64,000 nt of DNA from contig NZ_LR134386.1 in the NCBI RefSeq assembly GCF_900637665.1, positions 3,836,501 to 3,900,500 on the forward strand, given 5' to 3'. This DNA comes from Chryseobacterium nakagawai. Lineage in GTDB: Bacteria; Bacteroidota; Bacteroidia; Flavobacteriales; Weeksellaceae. Under the pieces are notes generated by a model. The model saw only the letters and a list, made by a program, of their open reading frames with translations, did no database searches and was not told the origin of the DNA. Within the stretch, counting starts at the first letter, position 1; each line of letters starts with the position of its first letter. This document shows positions 33,439 to 46,352 of this stretch, piece by piece. Made by a program: the position numbers and the translations under genes.

Positions 33439-35052
33439 TTATCGTTTGATAACTTTTACTGTTTTTACAAAGTCTTTGTCCGCATTTACTTTCACCTTAT
33501 ACACTCCTGATGTTAAAGAAGAAAAATCAATTATTCCCTTAGTGTCATTGATTGCTTTCGTTAGGATCAACTGTCCTGCGGCATTGTAAACACTTAGCAA
33601 AATAATCTTTTGATCTAGTGAGATCGTCAGGATATCCTGTACCGGATTCGGATAAACTTTCAGCTTATCTATTTTTTGTGAATCTTCCTGAACAGCTAAA
33701 GTACTTGTAGGGCAAGTAATAGATACAAATATTGGTTTTTGAATATTTGTGCCGTCTCCTAGCTGACCATAATTATTAAGGCCACAACCTGATAAAAAGC
33801 TATTATCATTAATAATAAATGTATTAAACATACCGGCTGTAAAGCTTTGTACATTAGTAACCGTTCCAATAAACGTAGGTGAATTTCTATTAGTTGTTGT
33901 TCCATCCCCTAATTGTCCAAGTATATTATCTCCCCATGCCCAAAATGTTCCATCTGTTTTGAGTGCTACTGAATGTTCAAAACCTGCATCAATGCTTTGC
34001 CAATCTGTTGCTGTTCCAATTTGTGTAGGTATAAGTCTATCAATAGTAGTACCATCTCCTAATGGTCCCAATTCATTTCTACCCCATGCCCATAAGGTTC
34101 CATCAATTCTGAGTCCTACTGAATGTAAACTTCCAGCAACAATATTTTTCCAATTCGTAGCCGTTCCGATTTGGGTTGGAGTAATTCTGTCAATTGTTGT
34201 TCCATCTCCTAAATGTCCGAATAAATTATTTCCCCAACCCCATAATGTTCCATCTGTTTTGATGGCGAAAGTATTCCCCCCACCAGATGTGATCATTTTC
34301 CAATCATTTGTTGTTCCTATTTGGATAGGTATATTTTTATCTATGGTTGTACCGTCTCCTAATTGTCCTTCCTGGTTATTACCCCAGGCCCAAAGTGTTC
34401 CATTTGATTTTATAGCTAATGTATAACTATCCCCAGCGGCAATATTTACCCAATCTGTGGCTGTTCCGATTTTTACTGGATTACTTCTGTCAGTTATAGT
34501 TCCATCTCCTAATTGTCCATAATCATTTCTACCCCAAGCCCATAGCGTTCCATCTGTTTTTAGTCCTAATGAATGATAAACTCCAGCAGCTATTTTCTGC
34601 CAGTTATTTCCGATCCCGACTTGTATTGGGATACTTTTTGAAATTGCAGTTCCATCCCCTAATTGACCAAAATTATTACGTCCCCATCCCCATAACGTTC
34701 CATCTGTTTTGATCCCTAACGAATGAAAATATCCAGAAGTCACCTTTTGCCAGCAGCCTGCTGTTGTTGTTGTTGTTGTTGTTGTTGTTGTTGTTGTTGT
34801 TGTTGTTGTAGGAACTTTAGTAAGGGAACCTTCCGCTGTACAATTGCCTTGGCTCATTCCACAAATAATATTGTTAGCTTTGCTCGTTTCGGGTTGAACG
34901 GTGGTATAGCCATCATTTGAAAACACTGTAATTAAATCACTCACAACGAAATACACTCCATCGTTTTTGGCTTTTCTAATATGCGGATCAGCTGCAAAAG
35001 CCATGATACAGACTAAACCTGTTAAGACAATAATTAATAATTTTTTTTTCAT
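33439..35052 (-). CDS. T9SS-exported protein with one seven-repeat RCC1 propeller and poly-Thr linker
   Basis: A 537-residue surface or secreted protein. After signal peptide LLIIVLTGLVCIMAFAADP come about 60 residues that align with the N-terminus of the beta-helix proteins at 39852 and 45177 (shared pattern IR...GxY..VS..IT..S.DG...QP.T). A run of 16 Thr, all ACA codons, follows. Then come seven RCC1 repeats of about 50 residues (type IKTDGTLWAWGxNxxGQLGD), opened by GCW and closed by CP, so one complete propeller. The C-terminus LKVYPNPVQDILTIS...VKVIKR is a type A T9SS sorting domain. It is most simply read as a fusion left by deletion inside a beta-helix/RCC1 module. Confidence 0.9.
   Translation of the reverse strand: MKKKLLIIVLTGLVCIMAFAADPHIRKAKNDGVYFVVSDLITVFSNDGYTTVQPETSKANNIICGMSQGNCTAEGSLTKVPTTTTTTTTTTTTTTTTAGCWQKVTSGYFHSLGIKTDGTLWGWGRNNFGQLGDGTAISKSIPIQVGIGNNWQKIAAGVYHSLGLKTDGTLWAWGRNDYGQLGDGTITDRSNPVKIGTATDWVNIAAGDSYTLAIKSNGTLWAWGNNQEGQLGDGTTIDKNIPIQIGTTNDWKMITSGGGNTFAIKTDGTLWGWGNNLFGHLGDGTTIDRITPTQIGTATNWKNIVAGSLHSVGLRIDGTLWAWGRNELGPLGDGTTIDRLIPTQIGTATDWQSIDAGFEHSVALKTDGTFWAWGDNILGQLGDGTTTNRNSPTFIGTVTNVQSFTAGMFNTFIINDNSFLSGCGLNNYGQLGDGTNIQKPIFVSITCPTSTLAVQEDSQKIDKLKVYPNPVQDILTISLDQKIILLSVYNAAGQLILTKAINDTKGIIDFSSLTSGVYKVKVNADKDFVKTVKVIKR
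34762..34809 (-). repeat. Trinucleotide microsatellite (16 ACA codons)
   Basis: On the plus strand (TGT)16, read as 16 consecutive ACA (Thr) codons in the RCC1 gene. Codon use is invariant, so the tract is likely to change length by slippage without breaking the frame. Confidence 0.95.
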
Positions 35053-35121
35053 GATATTGTAAATTAGCTTTTTTTAATAAAAACAACATGATTATCCATT
35101 ATAACTTTATGTTGTTTGATA

Positions 35122-35152
35122 CAAAAGTATATTTTTATTATGAATCATCAAA
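35122..35152 (-). promoter_or_regulatory. Complete Bacteroidota promoter of the one-propeller gene
   Basis: On the minus strand TTTG (35149-35152) and TACTTTTG (35122-35129) match the -33 and -7 boxes with 19 bp between them. Transcription should start near 35115, about 60 nt before the ATG. The flanking sequence is nearly the same as at 41528-41558. Confidence 0.75.
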
Positions 35153-45157: not shown

Positions 45158-45176
45158 ATTGTTATACCATTAGTCA

Positions 45177-46352
45177 TTATTTAGAAAAACCAGATCCACT
45201 GATATTTAATGTACCACCACTGATTGTTCGCGGAGTTAGTAAATAGTTTACCTGAGGTTTAGCTCCGCTATCTGTCGGCCAATAATTAATCCAACTGTTT
45301 GAACCACCGTAGTGACCTGCGTCATTTCTTGTTAAATCTAAGTCAGTGTAGTTTATATCAGGATTTCCAGCATTTACATTCATCCCTGTTACAGTGAATG
45401 CTGTCTCGCTGAAATTCATATTAACTCCTCCTGAATTATTGCTTTGAGTCATTGCTCCCTGTGTCACAAATGGATTTGTAAATACGTTGTAACTTGCTGT
45501 CACTGTCGCATTATTGTTATTGCTAATACACACATTGGTTGCTCCTACGACAAAAGAAGCGGCATTATTCATAATAGAAATATTCCCAGTGTTTCCATTA
45601 TTTAAGTTGATGGAAAACGGTGCTATATCACCACCATAAGGATCATAGATAGTGTTATTAATAATCTCGTTGTTACTGCCTGTTTTAATAGCATAAACAA
45701 AAACGCCACGGCAAAAATTATTGTAAAACTTAAAATTATAGTTTGATTGTGAATGTGATACCCCAAAACTTGCAGCATTGCCATACACTTCAATATCCGA
45801 TGTTGCAAGACTGGTATCTGCTACCGTAGAATTAGCATAAATAGACTGTGCTTTATTAGCAGTAACTCTACCATGAGAAAAACTAATTTCCCCCAGCACG
45901 CTAGAACCAGAAATATTAGTAGTTGTATTGGCTTGATTGGTAATTACCTTATTTAAATAACAATTGTAAAGGTTTATCGTAGTTCTTCCACCGGTAGTAG
46001 GCCCGCTTGCCACTAAGCTATAAATGGAATAGTCCCCAGAACTTAAATTGCTGATGGTTACCACTCTCCCAGCAGCGGGATTGATGGTAATCGTTCCCTG
46101 AATAAAATATTTGTTATAATTAGTTTCAGAAATAAAAGTTAATGATTTGTTGATGGTCAGGTTCTCTACGTAGGCCGTTCCATTCGTTTTGGGTTGAATG
46201 ATGATTCTGTCCCCATCAGAAGCTGCAGTGATAGCCGCACTTACAGTAGAATAAGCTCCCCCTGTTCCTCCATTTCTCACATACAAATCAGCTGCATAAG
46301 CCATCGTACTGGATAAGCCCGCAAAGGCCATGATTAGTAGTTTTTTTGTCAT
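45177..46352 (-). CDS. Exported right-handed parallel beta-helix protein (paralogue)
   Basis: A 391-residue exported protein, clearly a duplicate of 39852-41030. It shares the signal peptide (KKLLIMAFAGLSSTMAYA), DLYVRNGGTGGAYSTVSAAI, the DGDRIIIQPKTNGTAY stretch, the central coils (YNFKFYNNFC) and the end LNISGSGFSK. The middle has drifted more than the two ends. It is the first gene of the module containing the two-propeller RCC1 protein. Upstream lies the conserved palindrome and, beyond it, the integrative element. Confidence 0.88.
   Translation of the reverse strand: MTKKLLIMAFAGLSSTMAYAADLYVRNGGTGGAYSTVSAAITAASDGDRIIIQPKTNGTAYVENLTINKSLTFISETNYNKYFIQGTITINPAAGRVVTISNLSSGDYSIYSLVASGPTTGGRTTINLYNCYLNKVITNQANTTTNISGSSVLGEISFSHGRVTANKAQSIYANSTVADTSLATSDIEVYGNAASFGVSHSQSNYNFKFYNNFCRGVFVYAIKTGSNNEIINNTIYDPYGGDIAPFSINLNNGNTGNISIMNNAASFVVGATNVCISNNNNATVTASYNVFTNPFVTQGAMTQSNNSGGVNMNFSETAFTVTGMNVNAGNPDINYTDLDLTRNDAGHYGGSNSWINYWPTDSGAKPQVNYLLTPRTISGGTLNISGSGFSK

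Follow-up and report, generated by a model that had tools for sequence, protein, structure and literature searches.

Seven-blade RCC1 rings as candidate units of duplication and exchange in putative surface proteins of Chryseobacterium

Do arrays of RCC1 repeats grow blade by blade or by complete propellers, and what might such arrays do for the bacterium? This question is raised by a locus of Chryseobacterium nakagawai lying within a stretch of 64,000 nucleotides of contig NZ_LR134386.1 (positions 3,836,501 to 3,900,500 of the forward strand; the window, whose numbering is used throughout). An initial annotation had described there three open reading frames (ORFs), all on the minus strand, as RCC1 proteins built from one, three and two whole propellers, and they are present as described at 33439-35052, 35287-39834 and 41714-45157; we call them R7, R21 and R14. 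All 36 over-cut-off PF00415 matches of the 5.6 Mb, single-contig genome sit in these three proteins, each of which carries both PF00415 and PF25390 above the curated cut-off. With moderate confidence we favour the reading that they are surface binding proteins secreted by the type IX secretion system (T9SS), whose rings are duplicated and exchanged whole between a head of EYFWD (EY) repeats and a sorting tail.

The 7, 21 and 14 repeats counted earlier in R7, R21 and R14 were found again by a motif parse and by a hidden Markov model of the blade, built from the 42 blades of the window proteins, which divided them into 7, 7+7+7 and 7+7; one surplus motif match in R7 (residue 507) falls within the sorting tail. 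RCC1 matches occur in 38 of the 99 genomes of a first search, own genome counted, and in 93 of 173 genomes of the genus. Loci were taken from part of the RCC1-positive genomes and 93 RCC1 ORFs were analysed, two named outside loci being left out. Exactly seven blades were counted in 176 of the 186 runs of these ORFs, relatives and window together. Eighty-three ORFs have seven-blade runs alone (173 runs from 48 genomes, of which five do not belong to the genus); this set was chosen for that property, so the overall count of 176/186 is the one we use, and some of its members, too, are fragments or run off the end of a contig or locus (e.g. in genomes G056, G205, G183 and G181). They hold one (26 ORFs), two (36), three (15) or five (6) propellers. 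In the remaining ten ORFs there are ten runs of other lengths besides three of seven blades; nine of these ORFs are pieces of broken genes (G205, G181, G183), and one is cut by the locus end (G007). Broken array copies in G205, G181 and G183 (loci L112, L123 and L130) have their blades scattered over several ORFs.

A second set of 20 loci gave seven blades in 43 of 45 runs (ORFs with at least two blades), one four-propeller ORF included; of its two runs of six, one has its first blade ahead of an in-frame stop and the other shows, by eye, a degenerate seventh blade. Among 120 database homologues, many of them distant, the blade total is divisible by seven in 63 or 66 and not so in 57 or 54, depending on which of two models is used, and some have 28 or 35 blades in a single run without linkers. 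Blades are likely undercounted in the distant homologues, because the blade model was trained on the window. The survey of orthologues proposed by the initial annotation left the sevens standing within the genus and gave a mixed result in the database. A search of a genome contig collection with R7 returned two relatives, from Treponema and Schmidhempelia. Proteins of another build, of about 1300 aa, are encoded at L043:3043-6936 and L054:2228-6121, where an 860-aa N-terminal part precedes a single propeller; four fn3-like matches were found.

Growth by whole propellers is supported by comparison of the sequences between genomes. With blades in register, the closest ring in another genome was of its own class for 54 of 57 first, 29 of 33 middle and 53 of 57 last rings. 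For rings of less than 70% identity in other genomes, disregarding those of the five genomes not of the genus, 842 of 1176 blades had their closest match at the identical blade position. Rings 2 and 4 of the five in one G017 gene are 86% identical, and one ring type appears as the fourth in G127, the third in G186 and the second in G043 and G178 (71-84%). Clustering of the 173 rings at 80% identity gives 97 types. Blade position, the range of one to five propellers per ORF and the varied ordinals of a type all agree with the growth originally proposed, which needs to be widened, as propellers appear to be exchanged as well.

When related species are compared, complete propellers seem to behave like cassettes that can be duplicated and exchanged. 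We considered 21 same-slot pairs, having an equal ring number of two or more and a synonymous divergence (dS) below 0.5 in the upstream beta-helix-like (BH) gene and below 0.7 in the head. Seven pairs hold a ring with dS of at least 0.85. No fewer than four events underlie them: one in the last ring of G140, seen in four pairs, one in rings 1-2 of G005/G006, and two within the trio of G000, G007 and G015, no two of which have the same array. In G163/G140, dS is 0.05-0.31 in rings 1-4 and 1.28 in ring 5, with rpoB at 0.05; between R14 and G007 it is 0.27 in the head, 1.02 and 0.90 in the rings and 0.21 in the tail (rpoB 0.19). The opposite pattern is seen between R14 and G010, where ring 1 has 0.18, the head 0.87 and BH 1.11 (rpoB 0.31), and in G054/G006, where ring 1 has 0.01 (rpoB 0.19). 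As rpoB is probably codon-biased and understates neutral divergence, ring dS below rpoB is the safer evidence of transfer. Segmentation of six pairs, two of which (G052/G054 and R21/G150) fall outside the 21, placed 12 breakpoints near ring edges, with distances of 0-30 aa and a median of 13.5 vs 83 for random positions. In five no-swap pairs the segments were weak, with log-likelihood ratios (LLR) of 5-37 vs 73-346 in the six segmented pairs.

Structure prediction, the check suggested together with the original claim, was carried out on R14 from 25 rather close sequences and gave closed seven-blade rings of 28 strands each; ring closure in R14 is thus a prediction. Among the 50 structural matches listed, most of them to ring 2 of R14, a model ring overlays the whole ring of UVR8 at 1.4 Å over 352 residues. 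Column entropy, taken over blades 2-6 of 91 ring types, exceeds 3.2 bits at blade columns 12, 13, 29, 31, 32 and 44, which are rich in S, N, Y, D and G. Strands A-D of the model span about columns 5-10, 14-19, 24-28 and 43-48, so that columns 12-13 belong to the A-B loop and columns 29-32 to the C-D loop, with column 44 where strand D begins. The A-B and C-D loops lie on a common face of a propeller. Columns 12, 13, 29 and 31 align with W233, R234, W94 and D96 of UVR8, and column 42 (entropy 3.0) with D107, the UVR8 numbering being chain number plus 12, counted by eye in the alignment. In the available part of PMC9546227, W233, W285, W337 and W94 form the dimer-surface cluster of UVR8, and the D96N,D107N mutant is monomeric.

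The head of the arrays goes with a conserved partner. BH1 (45177-46352, minus strand, 391 aa) precedes R14, and BH2 (39852-41030, minus strand, 392 aa) precedes R21; the latter starts at about 41030, not at 41102 as first annotated. The earlier association of beta-helix genes with the RCC1 genes holds for these two pairs; R7 has no BH gene and begins instead with a BH-type leader (34876-35052, 41% identity to BH residues 1-59, E 1.1e-5). The best 120 of 385 BH homologues are 66-94% identical and, where named, come from Chryseobacterium and Flavobacterium; some of those listed are called right-handed parallel beta-helix. BH1 and BH2 had no Pfam or NCBIfam match at E 0.001, hence no sorting-tail match, and a PDB sequence search with BH gave nothing at E 0.1. 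Of the 173 genomes of the genus, 40 have BH; in a sample of 296 from the order, 8 gave a match, of which three were weak (E 4e-8 or worse). Two or three EY repeats are present in 44 of the 83 ORFs, and in every one of these 44 BH lies at most 60 bp upstream; RCC1 genes with other heads (Reg_prop-type PF07494, or a signal peptide alone) have no BH directly upstream in the locus maps. BH is followed by a bladeless EY protein with T9SS tail in G216 and G396 (another genus) and in G101, G166, G187, G167 and one G181 locus. The RCC1 Pfam domain was absent from the 120 listed of 365 matches to the bladeless EY protein, in a search that sees similar lengths only. The simplest history would be that rings were added onto an older BH-EY unit, with loss as the alternative.

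The mechanism we propose starts from closed seven-blade rings strung between the conserved EYFWD head and the conserved sorting tail. BH would likely pair with the head, each ring would present its variable loop face to a ligand, and new specificities would arise via duplication of whole rings and their exchange among strains and species. Homologous recombination would be the probable route of exchange, the head, fn3 and tail, which are more conserved, acting as crossover arms. A Cys-Cys bond, in R14 between Cys261 and Cys610 or between Cys709 and Cys1057, may close each ring in place of the inter-blade linker. Export by the T9SS is inferred from the tails, with support from an RCC1 protein of a relative in the available part of PMC5682007. 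A surface-binding role is plausible, and the array proteins may form a fast-changing recognition coat.

How far this holds has to be judged against several observations that speak for caution. Fourteen of the 21 same-slot pairs show no swap, 62 of the 173 rings have no relative of at least 80% in the set (types seen once), the six segmented pairs were picked by eye, favouring clear cases, and one of them (G010/G104) compares different gene copies. The head and tail of R14 are poorly modelled (predicted local distance difference test, pLDDT, 32-58 and 32-74; predicted template modelling score, pTM, 0.54), the beta-helix fold of BH would rest on database names, and the ratio of nonsynonymous to synonymous polymorphism (pN/pS) in same-type propellers is 0.43 in the variable columns vs 0.19 elsewhere, so that positive selection is not supported. 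The blade counts, the architecture, the partner linkage, the dS discontinuities with their boundaries and the variable blade positions were read directly from the sequences. A rather improbable alternative is that these are ordinary repeat proteins in which a ring simply needs seven blades and weakly constrained propellers diverge fast, with neither cassette exchange nor recognition; the best matches being solved RCC1-like rings, pN/pS below 1 in both column classes and the distant proteins with 28 or 35 blades would all fit it. However, weak constraint on the protein does not explain why in G163/G140 (rpoB 0.05) four rings have a dS of 0.05-0.31 and the fifth 1.28, nor how a ring can be younger than rpoB when two species are compared, and the five no-swap pairs yield weak segments alone (LLR 5-37).

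The variable face could also be directed to its like: it would bind the same face on a sister cell, in UVR8 fashion, and exchange would alter kin or strain identity. In the alignment with UVR8, four of the six variable positions fall on a dimer-surface position or on its neighbour, paralogous rings of one genome are at most 68% identical in the fetched loci, bar the one within-gene pair of G017 at 86%, and many rings are matched at 84-100% in another species; even so we give this self-recognition no more than a small chance. Less probable still is a structural or spacer role in a fibre, matrix or coat, with ring number setting the length and the variation irrelevant to binding or driven by phages or grazers. 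Fixed head and tail with one to five rings between them, as well as the short ringless EY proteins, agree with a spacer, but the variation peaks at six blade positions and the rings keep their class (54/57 first, 29/33 middle, 53/57 last). The favoured reading, of secreted binding proteins with rings duplicated and exchanged whole, can be carried further, albeit tentatively, to a cassette recognition system in which closed propellers with a hypervariable face, possibly disulphide-stapled, are traded across species into a fixed BH-EY-T9SS frame; if true, each lineage would have its own ring specificities, possibly to discriminate between self and non-self or to select partners or prey. What is duplicated and exchanged appears to be the folded ring as a unit, and breakpoints fall close to its borders, which makes this a case of natural domain swapping with a measurable boundary. 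This points to a surface system with conserved partner and variable face in a genus with RCC1 matches in 93 of 173 genomes, so that the search for ligands and the idea of stackable binding rings gain a concrete target.

R14 (1147 aa) consists of three EYFWD-DPG head repeats (44393-45088; about 80 aa each, 240-bp units), which gave no Pfam family above cut-off, propeller 1 (43331-44386, residues 258-609, 7 blades, 28 strands in the model), an fn3 domain (43091-43312), propeller 2 (41990-43042, residues 706-1056, 7 blades) and a T9SS type A sorting tail (41717-41932), all on the minus strand, as are the features that follow. R21 (1515 aa) has two EYFWD repeats, propellers at 38254-39306 (residues 177-527), 36913-37965 (624-974) and 35563-36621 (1072-1424), fn3 domains between them at 38002-38235 (residues 534-611) and 36628-36906 (linker residues ~977-1069), and a T9SS tail. 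R7 (537 aa) joins its BH-type leader through a threonine run, coded by a perfect (TGT)16 tract (34762-34809), to one propeller (33715-34764, 7 blades by the blade model) and a tail. The fn3 domains previously placed at seven-unit boundaries were recovered there by Pfam, two in R21 and one in R14, with none in R7. Por_Secre_tail ends all three proteins, with TIGR04183 at 45.6, 51.4 and 54.2 bits (the last in R14) vs a cut-off of 23. A polymorphic toxin was rejected, as all three end in a sorting tail and not in a C-terminal toxin domain.

In the 5' to 3' order of the minus strand the genes are BH1 (46352-45177), R14 (45157-41714), BH2 (~41030-39852), R21 (39834-35287) and R7 (35052-33439). Terminator-like hairpins follow R14 (41626-41675, z -7.2), R21 (35195-35240, z -6.6) and R7 (33359-33405, z -7.1). 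A promoter-like box TACTTTTG, of a type we take to be the Bacteroidota -7 consensus, lies upstream of BH2 (41528-41535) in a repeat common to the R7 upstream region (79% over 81 bp), where its counterpart is at 35122-35129; TAnnTTTG boxes were not enriched over the window (65 vs 85.7 expected). Because of the hairpin after each RCC1 gene, the upstream repeat and the BH-like leader of R7, the locus looks like three promoter-BH-RCC1-terminator units, the third with BH shrunk to a leader and Thr-joined to the propeller, although the promoter part would hang on a box of presumed type. From the co-transcribed, T9SS-tailed set of the initial annotation there remain the tails on all three RCC1 proteins; BH has none, and a single operon was dropped in view of the separate hairpins and is probably not the arrangement. 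Joining of BH to RCC1 by frame-shift or read-through was dropped too, the RCC1 ORFs opening just 4 and 7 codons ahead of the ATG.

The leaders upstream of BH (41030-41600 and 46352-46850) are long and partly conserved in 52 aligned regions; they carry a short ORF start and a AATCAATG...CATTGATT stem, with no Rfam match. The Rfam search of 30000-48000 gave no match, and a tRNA search found none. Right upstream of the array, 47029-52459 (plus strand) encodes RteC, helix-turn-helix, DUF4099/DUF3945 and topoisomerase genes, presumably a set typical of a Bacteroidota integrative conjugative element. Directly downstream of R7 (32879-33289) lies a 5-fold beta-flower protein (PF21785) built of 51-bp repeats. 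A histidine kinase and LytTR response regulator pair (30941-32700) is also downstream of the array; a second such pair is at 23057-25497.

A literature search at the level of titles and abstract starts, with most subscription journals outside it, found no paper about such arrays; the RCC1 mention in PMC3482391 is a portion of a virus strain name. The proteins belong to the RCC1-like fold and, by their tails, to T9SS type A cargo; the stacked, apparently exchangeable rings and the BH-EY frame set them apart. With UVR8 and other eukaryotic RCC1-like domains (RCC1, HERC1/2, RPGR), which belong to intracellular proteins, the arrays have the seven-blade RCC1 ring in common, but they differ in having one to five tandem rings, with a conserved Cys at both ends of each, and a T9SS tail. 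BLIP-II, a secreted beta-lactamase inhibitor that has one ring and lacks the T9SS tail, the head and a BH partner, resembles the array rings in fold alone. The two-gene BH + EY unit, probably of Flavobacterium, has the same BH (70% in G216), EY head and T9SS tail but, unlike the arrays, no RCC1 rings between head and tail. For UVR8 crystals, the accessible part of PMC9546227 reports no evidence of disulphides. THC0290_2385 of Flavobacterium psychrophilum also combines RCC1 with TIGR04183; according to PMC5682007, it is a cell-surface protein that is missing from gldD/gldG mutants. As far as the accessible text of PMC9218822 goes, this 2022 survey describes highly repetitive propellers amplified from single blades, RCC1/BLIPII being the third largest group: repeat amplification is shared with our arrays, yet it works there on single blades with varied counts, whereas here rings appear to be copied and swapped whole.
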